Origin: an uncultured Lachnospiraceae bacterium
GTDB taxonomy: Bacteria > Bacillota > Clostridia > Lachnospirales > Lachnospiraceae
DNA length: 64,000 nt
Assembly: GCA_902775555.1 (NCBI GenBank)
Contig: CACYMQ010000028.1
Span: 17,303-81,302 of the forward strand
Direction of reading: 5' to 3'
Shown here one piece after another: positions 16,055 through 63,577 of the stretch (position 1 is its first letter; every line of letters starts with the position of its first letter). The notes under the pieces were generated by a model that searched no databases, was not told the origin of the DNA, and saw only the letters and a list, made by a program, of their open reading frames with translations. Both the position numbers and the translations under genes were made by a program.

Positions 16055-16276
16055 TTTCAGGATCCTTCGCTTCGCTCAGGATGACACATTCTTGTCATTC
16101 TGAGGGCGCAGCCCGAAGAATCTTCTGTCCGGAAGATCCTTCGCTTCGCTCAGGATGACACCCACCCGCTCAGGAGGACACCCACATGTCATTCTGAGGA
16201 GCACAGCGACGAAGAATCTTTGAATCAGGCAGCTCCTTCGCTTCGCTCAGGATGACATCCACCCGCTCAGGATGAC
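16055..16276. repeat. Interspersed palindromic repeat cluster
   Basis: Several copies of GATCCTTCGCTTCGCTCAGGATGACA and its inverted partner TGTCATTCTGAGG...CGAAGAATCTT fill the gap between the TerB-like and FIST-GGDEF genes. The same family recurs at about 31.2, 60.5-60.85 and 61.67-61.89 kb. Pairs of copies in opposite orientation can form hairpins, like REP/MITE-type elements. Confidence 0.8.
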
Positions 16277-53963: not shown

Positions 53964-55133
53964 CTACCGGGTCACGCCTGCACGCTTCGCCTCATCGGCC
54001 ACAGCCTTTGCAACGACCTTCGATACATTTTCGTTAAATGCATCCGGGATGATATAGTCCGGGCGGATCTCCTCATCCGGGATCACGGCTGCGATCGCCC
54101 GTGCTGCCGCTTCCTTCATGGATTCGGTGATTGCCTTTGCCCTTGCATCCAGCGCTCCGCGGAAGATTCCGGGGAATACAAGCACATTGTTGATCTGGTT
54201 CGGGAAGTCGGAACGGCCGGTGGCGATGATGCCTGCCCCGCCCTTCTTCGCCTCATCCGGCATGATCTCCGGAACCGGATTTGCCATGGCAAATACCAGC
54301 GGGTCCTTCGCCATTGTGGAGATCATCTCTGCTGTTACGATATTCGGAGCGGAAACGCCGATGAAGATATCCTTGCCCTTCATCACATCCGCAAGGCTTC
54401 CGCGTTCCTTATTCTTATTTGTCACCTCGGCCATCTCTGCCTGCGCGGGATTCATAAAGGTTTCTCCCGGGCAGAGCGCACCCTTGGAGGAAACCAGAAC
54501 CACATTTCCGATCCCGAAACGCTGCATCAGCTTGCAGATGGAGATTCCCGCTGCACCGGCGCCGCTGATGACTGCGCTGCAGTCCTCCCATTTCCGGCCG
54601 GTCAGTTTAAATGCGTTGATCAGTCCGGCGCATACCACGACCGCCGTACCATGCTGGTCATCATGGAATACCGGGATATCCAGCTCTTCCTTCAGCCTGC
54701 GCTCGATCTCGAAGCAGCGCGGTGCCGCGATGTCTTCCAGGTTGATCCCACCGAAGGAGGGAGCGATCCTCTTTACGGTTTCGATGATCTCCTCCGTATC
54801 CTTTGTATCCAGGCAGATGGGAAATGCATCGACATTTGCAAAACGCTTGAATAAAACGGACTTACCCTCCATAACCGGAATAGCGGCCAGAGGACCGATA
54901 TCCCCCAGTCCGAGAACTGCGGTTCCGTCGGAAACCACCGCTACCGTATTGGCTTTGCAGGTGTAGGTATATGCCGCTTCCGGATCCTTGTTGATCACCC
55001 GGCAGGGCTCCGCAACACCCGGGGTATATGCGGTGGACAGGTCATCCTTGTTCTCGATGGCAACCTTGGACACCACCTCCAGTTTTCCTTTATTCTTCTC
55101 GTGCATCTCCAAACTCAACTTGTTGTAATCCAT
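53964..55133 (-). CDS. Malic enzyme, NAD(P)-dependent oxaloacetate-decarboxylating
   Basis: 389 residues, the short bacterial form without the phosphotransacetylase-like domain. Converts malate to pyruvate and CO2. Motifs: TAYTPGVAEPC, VVSDGTAVLGLGDIGPLAAIPVMEGK, FHDDQHGTAVV, the Rossmann loop SGAGAAGIS, and ANPVPEI. NAD versus NADP use cannot be told reliably. 129 bp before the ParB-BMP gene; no terminator between, so a shared transcript is possible. Confidence 0.95.
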   Translation of the reverse strand: MDYNKLSLEMHEKNKGKLEVVSKVAIENKDDLSTAYTPGVAEPCRVINKDPEAAYTYTCKANTVAVVSDGTAVLGLGDIGPLAAIPVMEGKSVLFKRFANVDAFPICLDTKDTEEIIETVKRIAPSFGGINLEDIAAPRCFEIERRLKEELDIPVFHDDQHGTAVVVCAGLINAFKLTGRKWEDCSAVISGAGAAGISICKLMQRFGIGNVVLVSSKGALCPGETFMNPAQAEMAEVTNKNKERGSLADVMKGKDIFIGVSAPNIVTAEMISTMAKDPLVFAMANPVPEIMPDEAKKGGAGIIATGRSDFPNQINNVLVFPGIFRGALDARAKAITESMKEAAARAIAAVIPDEEIRPDYIIPDAFNENVSKVVAKAVADEAKRAGVTR

Positions 55134-55249: not shown

Positions 55250-56116
55250 TTAGAAATCGAAGGTCAGCTGTGTACCCTCCGTCTGGTTGGAATACTGCCT
55301 TCTGTATGCGAGTATCTCTTTTTTGTCGCATATTATATCATATGCCGCACAAGTGTCAATCAAATGGCGCATCAGTTCCTTATGGTTCTCCGGCACCAGT
55401 TCCATTTCTTCACCGAACTTCTCTTCCAGCTGCTTCGCAACCTCGCGGTTCCTCTTACGCAGTTCTTTGTAGAAGTATTCGTAGCTTCCGTTCTGCAGCT
55501 GGCATTTCAGATCCCTGTGATCCACCATCCGTATCCCCTGATCCTTTGCCAGCTGGAGCAGCATTCCCAGGGTGGTGATGGAATCATTGATCCCCGGGAT
55601 CACCGGATCGATCAGAAGGATCGTCTCGATCCCGCCTTCCTTAAGGCCCTCCAGCAGCTGCAGCCGGTCGGAAAGCCCCAGCTCCCCTTCGATCAGCCGG
55701 AACTGATCGGTCTGCAGCGTCGGAAAAGGTACCGTTACCACAAGCTTGGTCTTCTTCGCGATCTCCTGAAGCAGATCCATATCTCTGAGGAGCAGGGAAT
55801 AGCGCGTGGTGATACTCAGTCCGAAGTCAAACCGGTCCAGCACCCTGAGGCAGTCCCGCATCAGTTCGAACTTCTTCTCCAACGGATTGTAGGGATCCGA
55901 GAATCCTCCTACGGATATCATTCCCCGGGACCGTTTTCTCCGCAGGGTATATGCCAGAAGAGAACCGGCATTTTCCTTTACCTCCACATCCTCCGGTTTC
56001 TCCACCCTGGAGGTCTTTGCCCTCACAGGTGAGACCAGGCAGTGGTCCGTTGCGCCGCGATATACATTTAACCCGTTCTGGGGCGTAAGGATCGTCTTCG
56101 CTTCCACTACATGCAT
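55250..56116 (-). CDS. Radical-SAM-fold protein (SPL-like) lacking the Fe-S cysteine motif
   Basis: 288 residues that follow spore-photoproduct-lyase-like radical SAM proteins through the barrel: MHVVEAKTIL, the NVYRG loop, SVGGFSDPYNPLEKKFELMRDCLRVL, FGLSITTRYSLLLRDMDLLQEI and LLIDPVIPGINDS. In that family the loop carries CxxxCxxC for a 4Fe-4S cluster; here it reads RGATDHCLVSP, with Ala22, Cys26 and Ser29, so two of three cysteines are lost (checked codon by codon at 56030-56055). It therefore should not form the usual cluster. It begins 18 bp after jetC and is likely cotranscribed, where jetD would be expected in a Wadjet set. Confidence 0.85.
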   Translation of the reverse strand: MHVVEAKTILTPQNGLNVYRGATDHCLVSPVRAKTSRVEKPEDVEVKENAGSLLAYTLRRKRSRGMISVGGFSDPYNPLEKKFELMRDCLRVLDRFDFGLSITTRYSLLLRDMDLLQEIAKKTKLVVTVPFPTLQTDQFRLIEGELGLSDRLQLLEGLKEGGIETILLIDPVIPGINDSITTLGMLLQLAKDQGIRMVDHRDLKCQLQNGSYEYFYKELRKRNREVAKQLEEKFGEEMELVPENHKELMRHLIDTCAAYDIICDKKEILAYRRQYSNQTEGTQLTFDF

Positions 56117-56134
56117 ACGCCTTCTCCCATCCTT

Positions 56135-59100
56135 CTATATAAAATCAAGTGTTGCCTGCTCATACTGCAGTTCCCGATACTCCGTGCTCTCCTCCGTGCT
56201 CCTGCTGCTGTAACGGTTCACCACGGTCAGGGCCTTTCCGCCTGTCATCTGCTGACCCAGCACATAATTCACATCGAAGCAGCCCGTGATCTCCGGCGTT
56301 GCCCCGCGGGAGGGTACGATCAGCTGCACCCGGTTCGTCCGGAGCAGTTCGAAGATCGGCTCCCAGATGTAAATATCCTTTGCCGCACCAAATGGGTTAT
56401 CAATGAAAATGGTCTTGCTCCGCTGTTCCCCTTCCTGCACGGAATACATACCGGAAATGTAATTGATCACCGACACCAGGAACTGGATATAGATACCCTG
56501 CGACTGGCCGGTACTTCCCACCGCTTCTTCATATCTGAGATACCGGCTCTGTTCCCGGATCCTCTCTCTCTTATACAGCTGCAGCCGGATCCGGTTCATA
56601 TCCGAAACGATGACTCCGAAGAGCTTCTTCAGTGCCAGCTCGGACTGCAGATACCGGTGCTGCTCGGCTTCCGTCTTCTTCTCATCCGCTTCCGCCACGA
56701 TCCGGTCGATATAGTCTGACATCCTCTGCTGCAGGAATTCATCCTTTACATAAGGAATGGACAGCCGGATCATCTGGATCTGTTCCTCCTGCATACGGAT
56801 CATGGACAGCCTCGGCAGCTTCTCAAGCTCCGTCCGCACATCCAGGCATCGCTCCAGACACTGTTCCACAAAATTCTCCTTCAGACGTTCCATGTCCGTA
56901 AGACCCTGCTCCACTCTGGAACGCTCCAGCCGGATCAGCTCCTCCATGTCGCCCAGACGTTTCGCCAGGTCATCCGCTGCCTCACGGGAATCCGGAATAT
57001 CCGCATCATCCCGCACCGATACCGACAGGGTGACCGCTCCCAGATCCATCAGACTCTGTGTCACCTGGCCCTTGGTGCGGAGCATCTGGTTCCGTGCCCG
57101 CTCCAGGCTCTTTTCATTTCTGTCGAGGCGCAGCAACACCTCCTCAAATTCACGCTGCAGCTCCGTCTCGGAGGCTTCGGACAGTTCTGCCTTGGAGAGA
57201 TCGATCCGGTAGCGCTCCACCAGCCGTCCTGCTTCCCGGAAGAGGCCCTCGCTTTCCCTGCTCTGCTTCGTAAATTCCTTCAGTGCCTCTCTGGCCCCGG
57301 TCAGGGCTGCTTTCGCCGCTTCCCGGGCCTCCTCTGCCAGAGGGATCTCTCTCTTCAGCTCTTCGGCAGTCAGCTCCGGGCTCTCATAGGAACCGAAGGC
57401 TGCACGGATATTCTCAATGGCATACTCCACGCTTCCGGCCAAATGCTGTACCTCTGCAGAGGCCTTCCCTGCTTCCACACGCTTCTGCTCCAGGAGCTGG
57501 CGGTCGCCTCGAAGCTTCTCCTCCTCGGCACGAAGCACATTTCGGTCCCCCGGCAGGATCTCGGTCTGTTCCAGCTCCTCGAGGCTGACTCTTCGTTCCC
57601 GGATGCCGCGGAGCAGCCGGCGGATCCCATCCTCCAGGGCGGACCGGAGCATTTGTCTCTCTGCCGCCAGGGCTTCCACCCCGGCCATATTCTTCCGCCA
57701 CAGCCGGAACTGTCCCTCCAGCTGTTCCCTGGTACCATGGGCTTTCGCGGTCCCCTCCACATAGTAGGCCTCATAATGATCCCTCCATGTAAGGTCGATC
57801 CTTTCCCGGTCGGATGCCAGAAGATTCCCGGCGTCCTGAAGAGATGTACATCTCTCCTGCAGCCCTGTCTCCTTTCTCTCCAGATCGGTGATGGACGAGG
57901 ACACGGTTGCTGCCCGTCTTCTCTGCTCCGAGAGTGCGCGTTCCTTCTCTTCTTTTTCCTGCTGCAGTGCCAGGAACTGCTGCAGCTTCTCTTCCTTTAT
58001 TTCAAATGCGTGAACTGCCGACCTGCTTTCTTCCAGCCCGCATCGTTCCGCCTCTGTTCTTTCTACCGCTTCGTGAAGGCTCTTCCTCATTTCTTCCAGC
58101 GCTGCCGCTGCCTGATCCCTTTTCGAGACCGGATCTTCGCCCTCGGCTGCGGATTCCTTCTCCAGCAGGAATTCCAGATCTGCCCGCTCTGTCTGTATGG
58201 CATCCTTCAGATACCCCAGCTCCGTCCTTCCGTTTTCCGCCAGTTCCCCGATGGTGGCCAGCAGCTTCTCCGCTGTCTCCTTCTCCAGGAAAAAGGCCCG
58301 GCTGTGCCGTACGGTCAGAAAATGCTCCGATATCTCTTCCTGCACATCCAGCGCAGCTGCATCATAGATCCTTACTGCAGAAGACCCCACTTCCATGGAG
58401 GTGAGCTGATTGTCCCGTGCCAGCTGCTCATATTCATTTACAATGATACCATAGGGCAGTTCCGGATTCGCAAGCAGCAGCTTCTCCCGTTCTTCCGTCT
58501 CCAGCCCGGCCAGATAGTCGGCTCCGAACACCGCATGGATGCCGTGTCTTGAGGAAATGTAGGAGAGTACCTTCTCCACATCCGGCGCCATGCTGACCAG
58601 GCGTCCGCTCCGGATCTCCCTGCTTCGCCGGTCCAGCCGCACCAGCTCCTTCTCCAACTCCGCCTGACGGTTCCCGTCTCTTTCCAGCTTCTGGTAGATG
58701 GCCTTCTTCGGATCCTCCTCCGAATGATAGATCCTGCAGATCTCTTCCCTTCTCTTCCGGTTCTTCTCCCGTTCCTCCGCGCTCTGTTCCCATTCCAGGA
58801 CCTCACGTTCCAGTCTTTCGGTTTCAGCCTCCTGCTCCTTCAGAGCTCTCCTCAGCTCTTCGATCGACTCTTCGTCTGCTTTCAGACGTTCCTCTCCCTG
58901 CTCCAGCTTCTGCTGTTCATTTTTCAGGCTGTCCCGAACCTCTTTCAGCTGGAGTTCCACCGGTTCCAGTCCTGTCGCTCCGGCTTCCCGGATCAGTTCC
59001 GCCGACCGGACATCCATTTCCTTACAACGGGTCTCACCCTCTGCAATCTCTTTCCGGATAACCGCCAGTTCGATCCGGGCATCCGTCAGCAGCTTTCGGC

Positions 59101-60469
59101 CCTGCGCGAGCCTTTCCTCTGTGTCCTTCTTCTCCTGTTCTACCCGCTTCTTCTGACTCTCGATCCGTTCCGCTTCCGCCACAAGGATATCATGGAGTGC
59201 CGCAACCACGGGTGCGATATCCTGTGGTGCTTCCTGCTCCGCCTCGGCAATGAGGGCCTGCAGCTTCCGGTTCTCCTCCAGATACTCCAGATAGTCCAGC
59301 TCTGCTCTTCGATGATTCAGCTGCTCTTCCTTCTCGAGGATGTTCGCCGCAGCCGCCTCCACCTCCGCACGGAGCTTCTCTTCCTTCTCTTTCAGACGCT
59401 CCAGCTGGCGCTCCTTCTCTCCCGTCTTCAGAACCTCAACACGGGCTCTTTGCTGATCAGACTTTACCTCCGCTTCTTCCACAGCACTTTGCAGCTTCTG
59501 CTGTGTCTCCTCCTTCGCAGCCCTCTCCTTATCCAGCGTCAGATAAATGGAGCCGATGCCCCGAAGGTATTCATCCCTTTCATCATACAGGCTGCTGAAG
59601 GAAAGGATCCGGTCACGGAGCAGCGTCACGAGTTCGGCTTCATGATCGAAGTTCGTGATATCTCTCTTCTTCTCCGCCAGCACCTTCAGCTGTTCCCGGA
59701 TACTCATGAGGAGCGATGCCGCATTTCTGTCGCTGTTCTCCTCCTGCCCCGTCTTTACCAGATAGGCCTTCTCAATGATCTCCTCGATCAGCAGGTCCTC
59801 CACTACTTTTCGTGTCGTCCGGTAATTGGTCTCAAAATAGGTCCGCACATGTCCCTCTGTCTTATTGATCCCCCGGACGATCTCCCACTGGCTCTCTATG
59901 ATCCCGTAGCTGCTGATAAATCTCTGATATTCTCCCTTCCGGTCAAAGATAAAGACCTCCACGCGGTTCTCCCGCCTGGCCAGATCATGAAGATAGTTCT
60001 TCAGCGCCTGAAAGGTCATCCTCTCGTCCCCTTCGGACAGGGGAAGGTTTACGATATCATACCGGTTATATTCCTGATAGAAGATACAGTAGTTAAAATA
60101 TTCCACGGAAGCAACTTCACGATTCTCATCCTCACTACGGTCTCTGGCCTTCCGTGCACAGAAGCCGGTGGTCATATACCGCATCCCGTCCTTCACATCC
60201 GACGGGTCCAGCTTCCATTCGATCAGGGAATGAATCGTGGTATTCCCGCAATTTTCCCGGAACAGTTTCTCCAGCGGCTGCTTCTCATCCAGCGTACAGT
60301 TGGGGATCATGCACTGCATAAGGAGAAGCATGAGCACGCTCTTCCCGCCTCCGTTGGCCAGATCGTACAGTGTATTCTGCCCGTAAAGCCGCATGGTGAA
60401 ATCATCATACGCCTGCGTGCCGAAATTATATTTTACATTATTTACCCGTATCCGGTTGATACTTGGCAT
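56135..60469 (-). CDS. jetC: JetC-like SMC/MukB-type ATPase
   Basis: 1,444 residues. The N-terminal head has Walker A NGGGKSVL (about 39-46); the middle (about 280-1,290) is two long coiled-coil arms separated by a hinge-like globular part near 640-790; the C-terminal head has a signature-type GQSQGIYIQF (about 1,320) and Walker B IFIDNPFGAAKD (Asp near 1,357), the DNPF form of JetC/MksB proteins. GGAGG precedes the ATG. In Wadjet, JetABC is a condensin-like motor that extrudes plasmid DNA and JetD cuts it. JetA and JetB homologues lie upstream; a JetD is not visible. Confidence 0.88.
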   Translation of the reverse strand: MPSINRIRVNNVKYNFGTQAYDDFTMRLYGQNTLYDLANGGGKSVLMLLLMQCMIPNCTLDEKQPLEKLFRENCGNTTIHSLIEWKLDPSDVKDGMRYMTTGFCARKARDRSEDENREVASVEYFNYCIFYQEYNRYDIVNLPLSEGDERMTFQALKNYLHDLARRENRVEVFIFDRKGEYQRFISSYGIIESQWEIVRGINKTEGHVRTYFETNYRTTRKVVEDLLIEEIIEKAYLVKTGQEENSDRNAASLLMSIREQLKVLAEKKRDITNFDHEAELVTLLRDRILSFSSLYDERDEYLRGIGSIYLTLDKERAAKEETQQKLQSAVEEAEVKSDQQRARVEVLKTGEKERQLERLKEKEEKLRAEVEAAAANILEKEEQLNHRRAELDYLEYLEENRKLQALIAEAEQEAPQDIAPVVAALHDILVAEAERIESQKKRVEQEKKDTEERLAQGRKLLTDARIELAVIRKEIAEGETRCKEMDVRSAELIREAGATGLEPVELQLKEVRDSLKNEQQKLEQGEERLKADEESIEELRRALKEQEAETERLEREVLEWEQSAEEREKNRKRREEICRIYHSEEDPKKAIYQKLERDGNRQAELEKELVRLDRRSREIRSGRLVSMAPDVEKVLSYISSRHGIHAVFGADYLAGLETEEREKLLLANPELPYGIIVNEYEQLARDNQLTSMEVGSSAVRIYDAAALDVQEEISEHFLTVRHSRAFFLEKETAEKLLATIGELAENGRTELGYLKDAIQTERADLEFLLEKESAAEGEDPVSKRDQAAAALEEMRKSLHEAVERTEAERCGLEESRSAVHAFEIKEEKLQQFLALQQEKEEKERALSEQRRRAATVSSSITDLERKETGLQERCTSLQDAGNLLASDRERIDLTWRDHYEAYYVEGTAKAHGTREQLEGQFRLWRKNMAGVEALAAERQMLRSALEDGIRRLLRGIRERRVSLEELEQTEILPGDRNVLRAEEEKLRGDRQLLEQKRVEAGKASAEVQHLAGSVEYAIENIRAAFGSYESPELTAEELKREIPLAEEAREAAKAALTGAREALKEFTKQSRESEGLFREAGRLVERYRIDLSKAELSEASETELQREFEEVLLRLDRNEKSLERARNQMLRTKGQVTQSLMDLGAVTLSVSVRDDADIPDSREAADDLAKRLGDMEELIRLERSRVEQGLTDMERLKENFVEQCLERCLDVRTELEKLPRLSMIRMQEEQIQMIRLSIPYVKDEFLQQRMSDYIDRIVAEADEKKTEAEQHRYLQSELALKKLFGVIVSDMNRIRLQLYKRERIREQSRYLRYEEAVGSTGQSQGIYIQFLVSVINYISGMYSVQEGEQRSKTIFIDNPFGAAKDIYIWEPIFELLRTNRVQLIVPSRGATPEITGCFDVNYVLGQQMTGGKALTVVNRYSSRSTEESTEYRELQYEQATLDFI

Positions 60470-60524: not shown

Positions 60525-60850
60525 CGTCATTCTGAGCGACTTTGTCATTCTGAGCGCAGCGAAGAATCTTTCCCGCCCTGTCACTCTGGGCCAACTTTGT
60601 CATTCTGAGCGCAGCGAAGAATCTTTCCCGCAAGATCCTTCGGCTTCGCCTCAGGATGACATGTGCGGGCTTCGCCTCAGGATGACATGTGCGGGCTCCG
60701 CCTCAGGATGACATGTGCGGGCTCCGCCTCAGGATAACATGTGCGGGCTCCCTCAGGATGACATGTGCGGGCTTCGCCTCAGGATGACATGTGCGAGCTT
60801 CGCCTCAGGATGACACATGATTGCTTCGCCTCAGGATGACGCCCGGTGGC
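60525..60850. repeat. Interspersed palindromic repeats with 26-bp tandem array
   Basis: Begins with two copies of TTTGTCATTCTGAGCGCAGC plus CGAAGAATCTTTCCCG, then inverted copies: about eight tandem units of GCGGGCTTCGCCTCAGGATGACATGT (26 bp, one unit shortened by two). Fills nearly the whole 404-bp gap between jetB and jetC. Confidence 0.88.
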
Positions 60851-60873
60851 TTCACCGCTCGTTGGCTGTCTCC

Positions 60874-61593
60874 TCACTCCGCCGTAACTGTCTCTTCGCT
60901 TAGCAGCTGTCGAATCCTGCCCTTGTCGTCCTCAAAATACCCTTCCGCCAGGGCACGGAAGCGGTCGGTAGGATAGAATCTGTCCTCCGCAGTGAGGAAG
61001 AGTTTCTCGCCTTGCAGGAAGTTCATAGTCAGCTTCACGAAGCCCAGCCGGGAGCCCCGACTCGCTTTATTCCTGTCCTTGTCCTCATTCACCATCAGCG
61101 GAAGTTCGTGCCACAGAAGTGCCACGGACCGAAATCCCTCCTGCTCCCGGGAGGTCTGGTTAAAGACTTCATTTTCCTTTACGATACGGTCCGCTGCATG
61201 GCTTACCGCATCCAGAAGCTCTTCCAACCGCAGGTAGTCCCGCACCTGATAGGTCGCGGAATCCGTATAGAAGAAGAGCAGCGCCTGATACATGATAAAA
61301 TACACCAGGTAGAGTTCCCGGTTCTTACGAAGTCCCATGATCCGCTTCAGATCATCATTTGTATAACCAAAAACCTTATTGCCGTCTCCCGCTGTAACGA
61401 ACAGGGTTTCATTATACTCATATACGGACATGTTCAGCCTTGCCAGCAGTTTTGTCACCAGATCATAAACCTCTGCATTCGAATAGTAGATCTGATACAG
61501 CTCCGATGTCGCCGGCCGGTTCTTGGCGATCTCCTCACCGGACATCAGCATGCTGAAAATATCCATTGCTTTTGAAAGTACTTTTTCTTCCAT
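60874..61593 (-). CDS. jetB: JetB-like (MksE-type, DUF6063) accessory protein
   Basis: 239 residues, soluble and mainly helical, with a winged-helix-like middle (about 60-130) and C-terminal GFVKLTMNFLQGEKLFL, DRFYPTDRFRALAEGYF. The assignment rests on fold impression, size and position between JetA- and JetC-like genes; it would be the kite-type subunit (MksE) of the condensin. GAGGAA precedes the ATG. The distance to jetC is large (404 bp of repeats), so coupling may be loose. Confidence 0.75.
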   Translation of the reverse strand: MEEKVLSKAMDIFSMLMSGEEIAKNRPATSELYQIYYSNAEVYDLVTKLLARLNMSVYEYNETLFVTAGDGNKVFGYTNDDLKRIMGLRKNRELYLVYFIMYQALLFFYTDSATYQVRDYLRLEELLDAVSHAADRIVKENEVFNQTSREQEGFRSVALLWHELPLMVNEDKDRNKASRGSRLGFVKLTMNFLQGEKLFLTAEDRFYPTDRFRALAEGYFEDDKGRIRQLLSEETVTAE

Positions 61594-61671
61594 GATAATT
61601 CCTCAATTTAATCATGATGGGAGGTTGGTGCAGTCTCCCGCCTGTCCCGCTGTACCAGTCAAAGTAACACC

Positions 61672-61886
61672 CGCCTGTCATTCTGAGCCCTCCGGGGCGA
61701 AGAATCCTTCCGACTGCAAGATCCTTCGGGCTTCGCCCTCAGGATGACATGCAGCGCTTCGCCCTCAGGATGACATGCAGGGCTTCGCCCTCAGGATGAC
61801 ATGTTGCGCTCTGCCCTCAGGATGACACCCGCCTGTCATTCTGAGCCCTCCGGGGCGAAGAATCCTTCTGCCCTCAGGATGACAGC
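61672..61886. repeat. Interspersed palindromic repeats between jetA and jetB
   Basis: TGTCATTCTGAGCCCTCCGGGGCGAAGAATCCTTC occurs twice, separated by tandem units of GGGCTTCGCCCTCAGGATGACATGCA. The left boundary copy supplies the last codons and stop of jetA (TGTCATCCTGA). Confidence 0.88.
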
Positions 61887-63577
61887 GAAAATGTCATAGC
61901 CCGCACGGTTCCCAGCGGTTCTCCCGCATCTCCGGTAAGCTCCACATCTTCATCCCCATACTGCAGCGTCAGGACCATATCCCTGTAACGCTGTTTTTCT
62001 TCCTCCGAAAATGTATTTCTGACATAGAGTTCCAGGAAGGTCTCCGGCTCCTCGAAGCATTCCTTCATGGAATAACGGTCCTTCTTGGCAAGGTGCACCA
62101 GAAACGCATAATAATCTCTGTTTCGATAGATTTCTTTTCCGAACTTGATTTCCAGGATGGCATTGAACTCCGGAAGTGTTACGGTATTCCAGCGTTCCAG
62201 ACGATCCAGCAGCTCTCTGAACAGCATGACGAAATTCTGTCCGATCATCCGGCTGAGCGCCTCATCCTCATATTCGAAGCCCAGGTCCGGAGCCTCCTTC
62301 TCCCGCTTCTCTGTCAGATCCTCTTCCTCCCTGGCTTCATTCACCAGCTTGTCGATACTGAAGATCGATAGACTCTTCCTTCTTCTCGGGAGGAAGAAAG
62401 GCGCCAGGATCCGTCCCATCTGATCCGGCTCGTCCTTCTCCTGCATAAGACGAAGCGCCGTTTGAAAGTCAAATGCGGGACGCAGTTGTCTGGCCTTGCC
62501 CCGTTCCACCATTTCATCTGCCATACGGGAGAGCCCTGCCGCTTCCTCCATCAGAAGCCGGTGGCTTTCTATGGTCTTCTTCAGTTCCGTTTCAAGAACG
62601 GAAATATCCTGAAGAGAATTCCTCTTTCCTCTGCCGGAGTATGTCCCGGCCGTATCCTTTCGTTTCCCGCCGGAGTATGCCCCGGCCGAATCCTTCCGGT
62701 TTCCGTCGGAGCCTGCATTTACGGCGTCCTTCCCCCATGATCCTGCGTTTTTCCCGTCGGATCCCGCGCTCCCTGCATCTGCCTGTCCGGCTATGATGCC
62801 CGGATCCGCGGCAATTCTTGCAACCGCTTTATCCACCAGCACCTTGTTCTTGCGGAAGGATTCCCTCTCCAGATCAAACCATTTGGAGATTTCTGCCATA
62901 TAGGCCTCGCAGGCGCGCACCCCTGCCTTCAGATCGGACTGCAGCAGGCGTACGGTCTCTTCCCGTTCCTTCCTAAGCCTTGCCACCTCCAGATTGATGC
63001 GGCGCACCACATCGATCCCGCCACGGAAATTCTCGGTCCGGATCATTTTCTCCAGCAGCAGCTGTTCCGTGGTGATCGTACTTTCGTCCCGTACTTCTTT
63101 CGTGGAGAGATAGAATTCGATTCCATCCGCGGTGATGCCGTATGTCACTTCTCCATCCTGTACGGTACTTTCCACCAGCCGGACATAGCCCTCCTGCCGC
63201 ATGTGCGTCTCCGGATCATAAAAGGGAAAGATAAAAGGCCGCCCGTCATTTCTGATCTTGTCAAAGAGATAATGGATCAGTCCGCTTTCCTCTTCCCGTG
63301 GGATCATTTCCGCAAAATCCCTTCGCAGCACGCTGATCAGAAATTTCTCAATCTCCGGATAAGTAACCCGCCGCTGGCTCATTTGATTCTCCTGGATCAG
63401 AAAGCGGAGAAGCGCCATGGTGATATATCCCATGTCCAGATTCTGAAACCGGCCTTCCTTATATTGGCTGAGGGTAGTTTCATGCAACACAAAGAACGGA
63501 TAGTACTTCTTCAGGTACAGCATCCGTTCCTTCTCACTCCTCAGTATATCGTCTATCAGCACATGCTCCTCAGCCAT
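61874..63577 (-). CDS. jetA: JetA-like (MksF-type, DUF5716) kleisin subunit
   Basis: 567 residues with N-terminal winged-helix-type region (about 25-190), helical middle and a C-terminal helical domain (about 430-540). This pattern and neighbours fit the JetA kleisin of Wadjet systems. Residues about 267-325 are a low-complexity Gly/Ser/Lys/Asp-rich stretch encoded by degenerate 37-bp repeats near 62630-62760. The last residues (SLSS, stop) come from an interspersed repeat. Promoter TATAAT upstream; AGGTGG ribosome site. First gene of the jet set. Confidence 0.78.
   Translation of the reverse strand: MAEEHVLIDDILRSEKERMLYLKKYYPFFVLHETTLSQYKEGRFQNLDMGYITMALLRFLIQENQMSQRRVTYPEIEKFLISVLRRDFAEMIPREEESGLIHYLFDKIRNDGRPFIFPFYDPETHMRQEGYVRLVESTVQDGEVTYGITADGIEFYLSTKEVRDESTITTEQLLLEKMIRTENFRGGIDVVRRINLEVARLRKEREETVRLLQSDLKAGVRACEAYMAEISKWFDLERESFRKNKVLVDKAVARIAADPGIIAGQADAGSAGSDGKNAGSWGKDAVNAGSDGNRKDSAGAYSGGKRKDTAGTYSGRGKRNSLQDISVLETELKKTIESHRLLMEEAAGLSRMADEMVERGKARQLRPAFDFQTALRLMQEKDEPDQMGRILAPFFLPRRRKSLSIFSIDKLVNEAREEEDLTEKREKEAPDLGFEYEDEALSRMIGQNFVMLFRELLDRLERWNTVTLPEFNAILEIKFGKEIYRNRDYYAFLVHLAKKDRYSMKECFEEPETFLELYVRNTFSEEEKQRYRDMVLTLQYGDEDVELTGDAGEPLGTVRAMTFSLSS

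Follow-up and report, generated by a model that had tools for sequence, protein, structure and literature searches.

What does a radical-SAM-fold protein do when it has lost the cysteines that held its 4Fe-4S cluster, and is its function tied to the SMC operon behind which its gene lies? The question is raised by a reading frame in a 64,000-nucleotide stretch of DNA from an uncultured Lachnospiraceae bacterium (the window). The frame at 55250–56116 on the minus strand starts 18 bp after the stop codon of jetC (spacer 56117–56134). From the letters of the window, the first-pass annotation described the product as an SPL-like radical SAM protein with one of the three loop cysteines left, took it to be non-catalytic as a radical SAM enzyme or to use the barrel differently, and raised the possibility that it is a Jet-associated partner.

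An SPL-like protein without its cluster site

The gene and its former cluster loop are as follows.

55250–56116, minus strand: SPL-like (radical-SAM-fold) protein without the cluster, 288 residues, ATG start (open reading frame, profiles, loop alignment, AlphaFold2, and PDB structure matches)
56030–56056, minus strand: former 4Fe-4S loop, residues 21–29 (G-A-T-D-H-C-L-V-S), in which A22 and S29 occupy the positions of Cys1 and Cys3 and Cys26 is kept (alignment)

In its predicted fold, the protein is like SplB (PDB 4fhc and 4rh0) and PA0069/Rv2578c-type proteins, and the NCBIfam profiles cover most of the barrel. The PA0069 profile matches with an E value of 2.2e-27 and 96.0 bits, against a curated cut-off of 360, and the Rv2578c profile with an E value of 2.5e-25 and 89.2 bits, against a curated cut-off of 430. 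The Pfam Radical_SAM score is 18.8 bits, under the 29.5-bit cut-off. The genome of the window, G000, also has an intact paralogue, which matches the same NCBIfam profiles and is also under their cut-offs, with 141.3 bits for PA0069 and 133.9 bits for Rv2578c. A PDB sequence search with the 288-residue protein or with profile A2 gives no meaningful match. Structure prediction, which the first-pass annotation had proposed for the cluster site, returns the SPL fold. The AlphaFold2 model, made from 55 aligned sequences, has a pLDDT of 93.0 and a pTM of 0.90, the last residue block being of low confidence (mean 49), and the first six PDB matches of this model in Foldseek are all SPL entries (for 4fhc, E value 2.1e-6 and TMq 0.63). 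The identical six entries rank first for the model of an intact Jet-linked relative (L178; pLDDT 91.1). By prediction, the barrel is related to radical SAM structures.

Unlike SplB and the PA0069/Rv2578c-type proteins, the window protein lacks CxxxCxxC, scores far under the cut-offs, and has many of the canonical positions gone. Its loop reads YRG-A-T-D-H-C-L-V-S, compared with YRG-C-T-H-G-C-I-Y-C in the intact paralogue of G000, and YRGATDHCLVSPV stands at the place of YRGCTHGCIYCDS in intact relatives. Cys1 and Cys3 are gone and the middle Cys is retained; the paralogue alignment and the NCBIfam profiles thereby bear out the first-pass description of an SPL-like protein with a single loop cysteine.

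The loss is common to the genus. Our same-genus set comprises 61 genomes, 56 of which have a readable degenerate copy, and CxxxCxxC is absent from all 56 copies (40 + 16). Two of the 61 genomes (G011 and G050) are without any SPL-like match, and in three (G033, G051, and G060) jetC is cut by the contig end and there is only a paralogue-level match or fragments. The degenerate copies read have open frames of 280–300 residues. In a simple NG86 codon test on hand-chosen close pairs, dN/dS is 0.015–0.137 in the 13 unsaturated of 16 degenerate pairs (the other three are saturated) and 0.028–0.134 in 11 pairs of intact paralogues. The values are far below one and similar to those of the intact paralogues, indicating that the gene encodes a conserved protein and is no pseudogene.

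The missing CxxxCxxC in the window protein is neither decay nor error. Recent decay, a sequencing error, or a frameshift would find some favor in the intact copies that other lineages have at this locus, which the first-pass annotation had named as grounds against its own claim. Such copies do occur, eight in number, but they all lie outside the 61 genus genomes and therefore show ancestry, not recent decay. Given a loss shared by every readable genus copy, in open frames with dN/dS well below one, we attach practically no weight to this explanation. Another possibility is that the Fe-S cluster is held by other ligands and that the protein is still a radical SAM enzyme. Among the 40 aligned degenerate copies, Cys1 is kept in none, Cys2 in 20 (that of the window included), and Cys3 in four, and a few copies (L006, L009, and L022) have other clustered cysteines. 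The 20 copies with a motif cysteine and the clustered cysteines would suit such an enzyme, but at no position of the protein do all 40 copies have a cysteine, and the loop is also shortened in 17 of them, and we consider it very improbable. With the cluster site lost clade-wide under purifying selection, the reading of the protein as non-catalytic, as far as radical SAM chemistry is concerned, is well supported at the sequence level, as the first-pass annotation had it.

The jetABC operon, its fourth gene, and their ancestry

The operon and the downstream landmark gene are as follows.

56135–60469, minus strand: JetC3-like SMC ATPase, 1444 residues (PADLOC PDLC00581, 1509.5 bits; GGGKS, STGQSQG, and FIDNPF motifs kept)
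60874–61593, minus strand: JetB3-like subunit, 239 residues (PADLOC PDLC00571, 300.1 bits; Pfam DUF6063)
61874–63577, minus strand: JetA3-like subunit, 567 residues (PADLOC PDLC00560, 588.9 bits)
53964–55133, minus strand: landmark gene, with a homologue 3' of the SPL-like gene in the majority of the same-genus loci read, though some lack it

Like Wadjet type III (JetABCD), the window has JetA3, JetB3, and JetC3 (PADLOC) in one operon, and the gene order is identical. With its three motifs kept, JetC should be an active ATPase. Its Walker B motif is FIDNPF, with Asn where Glu stands in many SMC ATPases; the five aligned JetC proteins of true type III systems also have DNPF. Unlike Wadjet type III, the operon has no JetD3 that we could find beside jetABC. 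In the 61 genus genomes, the one model searched of the several for JetD3, PDLC00592, yields no more than eight weak matches of at most 23.2 bits, and the match of G000 falls inside its type I JetD. In the remote type III loci of the family, a gene of 333–354 residues precedes the jetA-like gene in all eight loci read, and JetD3 is recognized by profile in all three loci scanned. The JetC proteins of these remote loci are 22–31% identical to the window JetC and have SGG/SSG where it has STGQSQG. Among 344 genomes from the order, 11 have a JetC of the close kind (E < 1e-200); G360 belongs to another family, and the other ten to the family of the window.

The available part of PMC10586767 regards MksBEF of Pseudomonas aeruginosa, which organizes the chromosome, as probably a JetABCD without JetD. 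Like MksBEF as described there, the window operon encodes an SMC complex that lacks the nuclease, and most loci read have it at a conserved position in the chromosome; unlike MksBEF, it has type III-like subunits and a cluster-less SPL-like fourth gene, and its role as a condensin is putative. Since no JetD3 is found, we liken jetABC to a nuclease-less (MksBEF-like) condensin, which it resembles more than Wadjet defence.

The operon neighbourhood is the same in most loci read, and in two genomes the contig is longer than 3 Mb. We take the order at the site to be an aldolase, jetABC, the SPL-like gene, a malic-type enzyme, and MoxR, the gene at 53964–55133 presumably being the malic-enzyme-like one. 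Synteny at this site holds for most of the genus loci read. The YtxH-like, MoxR, DUF58, and malic-type genes are absent in some loci, and the linkage to jetC stays.

JetC is matched in 54 of the 61 genus genomes. Three of these have jetC cut at a contig end; in all 51 that have its 3' end on the contig, the SPL-like gene lies 3' of jetC on the same strand. The gap is 6–248 bp, measured from match ends with a possible error of a few bases, and is below 60 bp in 40 of the 51. Relatives thus share both the loss and the jetC neighbour (56/56 and 51/51), which the first-pass annotation had asked to be checked. In five genomes (G003, G017, G036, G037, and G059; completeness 88–100%), the degenerate gene is present and there is no jetC match, as judged by a genome-wide search for JetC alone, JetA and JetB not included. 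In four of the five (L066, L067, L077, and L078) the gene occupies the usual syntenic position, and the contig of the fifth is too short. The retention of the gene in these genomes indicates that its product cannot simply be an obligatory subunit of Jet. Of the suggested Jet partnership, the gene linkage therefore stands, with two qualifications: no JetD3 is found, so that the operon cannot be taken for a Wadjet defence system on this evidence, and five genomes keep the protein without a jetC match.

Outside the genus, we read 20 family loci of the close JetC kind (family set of 299 genomes), and none of them has an SPL-like gene, indicating that the complex has no general need of such a protein. 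In 13 of these 20 loci (L121–L140), jetABC, with no SPL-like gene, is followed by a gene of 646–1246 residues; the one next-gene product scanned, that of L125, has TPR repeats.

Type III jetC lies beside canonical SPL in none of 41 canonical loci with a readable gene row, a set without L116, in which a contig end truncates several loci (that of L087 immediately 5' of the gene). As a general rule, canonical SPL beside Jet genes was rejected, with one case among the 41 loci, that of G000 itself, in which the Jet genes are type I jetABCD. There (L062:4893–12883, G000:C11), a complete type I jetABCD (PADLOC) is immediately followed by the intact SPL-like radical SAM gene of G000, and the gene after it is one that we take to be GNAT-like.

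Many genomes have an intact paralogue alongside the degenerate copy; that of G000, at C11:41935, is 35% identical. In the tree, which has no outgroup to place its root, the 46 intact non-Jet-linked copies form one clade and the 40 degenerate copies another (97/87), with the Jet-linked intact copies between them as a grade. In a 52-row tree made without the loop columns, the degenerate clade is still recovered (96/86). The eight distinct Jet-linked copies that keep CxxxCxxC are L063, L064, and L065, which belong to three further genera of the family, and L175–L178 and L181. A scan of named genomes gives 55 loci, 8 with CxxxCxxC and 47 without. It uses the single peptide pattern TPQNG[LMI]N[IVL]Y from the profile and misses copies with another N-terminus (e.g., L064 and L068). 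The records of the 55 loci are titled Lachnospiraceae, Eubacterium sp., or unclassified Clostridia/Clostridiales, and several are metagenome-assembled genomes from the rumen or other gut sources.

We scored canonical residues over 100 columns whose constancy among the copies of the intact clade is 97% or higher. The Jet-linked intact copies keep 95–96 (five copies), 82 (L033), and 68 (L032 and L034) of these columns, and the degenerate groups keep 61–66, 51–54, 46–58, and 43–50. Expressed as losses, 34–39 positions are gone in the GGPN group and 42–57 in the other degenerate groups. In L032 and L034 the cysteines are still there while a good part of the canonical pattern is already gone, a hint that the function changed before the cluster was lost. 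The copies at L066, L067, L077, and L078, which have no jetC match, keep 61–66 of the 100 residues, compared with 43–58 in the other degenerate copies.

A clamp-binding-like C-terminal tail

The C-terminus of the protein carries one further feature.

55253–55300, minus strand: C-terminal signature RxYxNxxxGxQ with the clamp-binding-like tail QLTFDF, residues 273–288 (alignments, motif counts, and PolC comparison)

Residues R273, Y275, N277, G281, and Q283 are invariant in alignments A1 and A2 and are followed by a hydrophobic pattern. The tail Q is present without exception in the 40 degenerate and 46 canonical copies. In the available parts of PMC12309361 and PMC3716654, the bacterial clamp-binding consensus is QL[S/D]LF or QxxLF. 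At the tail, Q[LM][SD]LF is found in 25 of 46 intact paralogues and in 6 of 40 degenerate copies; on the latter count, QL[SD]LF was rejected as a general motif of the degenerate clade.

Since so few degenerate copies have Q[LM][SD]LF, we added PolC of the genus as a control. PolC is matched in 59 genomes; each of the 30 genus loci read encodes a PolC with a C-terminal QLxFxF (recognized by pattern in 29 and by eye in G057), and in five of the 30, the tail is exactly QLTFDF, as in the window protein. The C-terminal PolC motif of the genus (PolC of G000, L298, and 29 others) is QLxFxF, compared with QLSLF in B. subtilis. According to the available part of PMC12309361, the C-terminal QLSLF of B. 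subtilis PolC binds DnaN and could not be removed, and binding to the E. coli clamp is reported there for the hexamer QLSLPL and not for the exact QLxFxF form. DinB of G000 has an internal QLDLF, and MutS of G000 has no clamp motif by the pattern used; the clamp code of the host therefore rests on PolC and the internal QLDLF of DinB.

We then counted a strict clamp pattern, defined as Q[LMI]x[LI]F or Q[LMI]xFxF within the last 30 residues. It is found in 39 of 46 canonical, 6 of 8 Jet-linked intact, and 23 of 40 degenerate copies, against a background of 4 in 1029 other open reading frames of the fetched loci and 0.35% of shuffled tails. The other 17 degenerate copies lack the strict pattern, and 16 of them still have Q[LM]x[LFI]. 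Among the 17 are all ten of the closest relatives of the window copy (L003–L012), which retain QLSF or similar.

The window protein is like clamp clients with QLxLF or QLxFxF (PolC and DinB) in its tail sequence, with the C-terminal placement seen in PolC. Unlike PolC and DinB, it is no polymerase and would be a candidate client, and its nearest relatives lack the strict motif. Judged by its residues, the window tail has the form of a sliding-clamp client motif. In the phylum-level CxxxCxxC relatives (L266–L294; two of this family), a looser pentamer is absent from the tail in 13 of 29 and present in the other 16.

Candidate roles of the protein

The sequence facts are firm: the gene is linked to jetC, the loss was stepwise, selection is still purifying, the tail resembles a clamp motif, and the barrel retains G70, D74-P75-Y76, T104, R111-D112, and F215 in all 55 rows of alignment A2. 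To account for them, we favor, tentatively and at somewhat less than an even chance, a pseudo-enzyme SPL scaffold that joined jetABC without JetD3, lost its cluster, is tethered to the clamp via its tail, and works with the JetABC condensin. An SPL-like protein of the radical SAM fold would have been recruited behind a jetABC that lacks JetD3 and encodes a MksBEF-like SMC complex of the chromosome. The 4Fe-4S cluster would have been lost after recruitment, and SAM cleavage with it. The old barrel may still bind a small ligand or DNA, and the tail would dock on the DnaN sliding clamp. The protein could in this way mark replication forks, gaps, or lesions and bring, guide, or restrain the JetABC condensin there. 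In some species the clamp route may work without JetABC, and the retention of the gene in genomes with no jetC match would then be accounted for. Against this scaffold stand the five genomes with the gene and no jetC match, the 17 degenerate copies (the ten closest ones included) that lack the strict clamp pattern, the missing clamp motif in MutS, and the 20 family loci in which the close JetC kind does without an SPL-like gene. That a clamp-tethered pseudo-photolyase acts as the SMC loader or regulator linking the JetD3-less type III-like Jet complex to the replication clamp seems to us rather doubtful.

The protein may instead be a cluster-free barrel for SAM or a nucleotide, serving as a SAM-sensing regulator or as a non-radical enzyme of the operon, with the tail as an ancestral leftover. 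In accordance with a working barrel, TPQNGxNxYxG, GxxxDPY, T104, RDxD, and PxxP are invariant or nearly so across the degenerate copies, and the AlphaFold2 model is confident. However, T136, C143, W173, and G209 (L002 numbering), constants of the intact clade, are missing in all 40 degenerate copies, as are T134 in 35 and R213 in 36, and a Q kept at the tail throughout the degenerate and canonical copies would be needless in a leftover. We regard a SAM-binding barrel of this kind as unlikely, though worth keeping in view. The gene may also be no more than a neighbour in the operon, its role tied to the nearby core metabolic or cell-envelope genes and its linkage to jetABC an inherited synteny. 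The conserved site in most genus loci read would fit, as would the four loci (L066, L067, L077, and L078) in which the gene holds the same site without jetABC; the linkage to jetC nevertheless persists where other neighbours vary, and the short gaps (below 60 bp in 40 of 51) speak against mere synteny, which we think distinctly improbable.

If the clamp-tethered scaffold working with JetABC is right, the degenerate copies constitute a conserved clade with the radical SAM fold and no cluster, intermediates included, and trace a route from a DNA-repair enzyme to a part of a chromosome-organizing complex. If the clamp tether is real, it would follow for the phylum that its intact SPL-like radical SAM proteins repair DNA while tethered to the clamp. 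An association of SPL-like radical SAM proteins with SOS and repair genes has been described earlier (PMC3765255, available part). The clamp-binding-like tail is possibly a general feature of the intact SPL-like subfamily across the phylum, and its occurrence on many intact SPL-like proteins makes for a cheap and directly testable prediction for this group of radical SAM proteins, whose members are unassigned.

In the openly licensed literature, outside which most subscription-journal papers lie, we find no account of Wadjet with SPL or radical SAM proteins, of radical SAM or SPL/SplB proteins with a clamp motif, or of such degenerate radical SAM proteins or JetABC without JetD as described here. 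The operon would be a natural Jet complex minus the nuclease and plus another partner, which bears on the interconversion of defence SMC complexes and housekeeping condensins.

The intergenic jetB–jetC and jetA–jetB gaps (window 60539–60866 and 61667–61880) contain 26-bp tandem repeats of the CCTCAGGATGACATGTGCGGGCTTCG type and CATTCTGAGC...GAAGAATC units, and units related to these jet intergenic repeats are also found at window 16061–16254.
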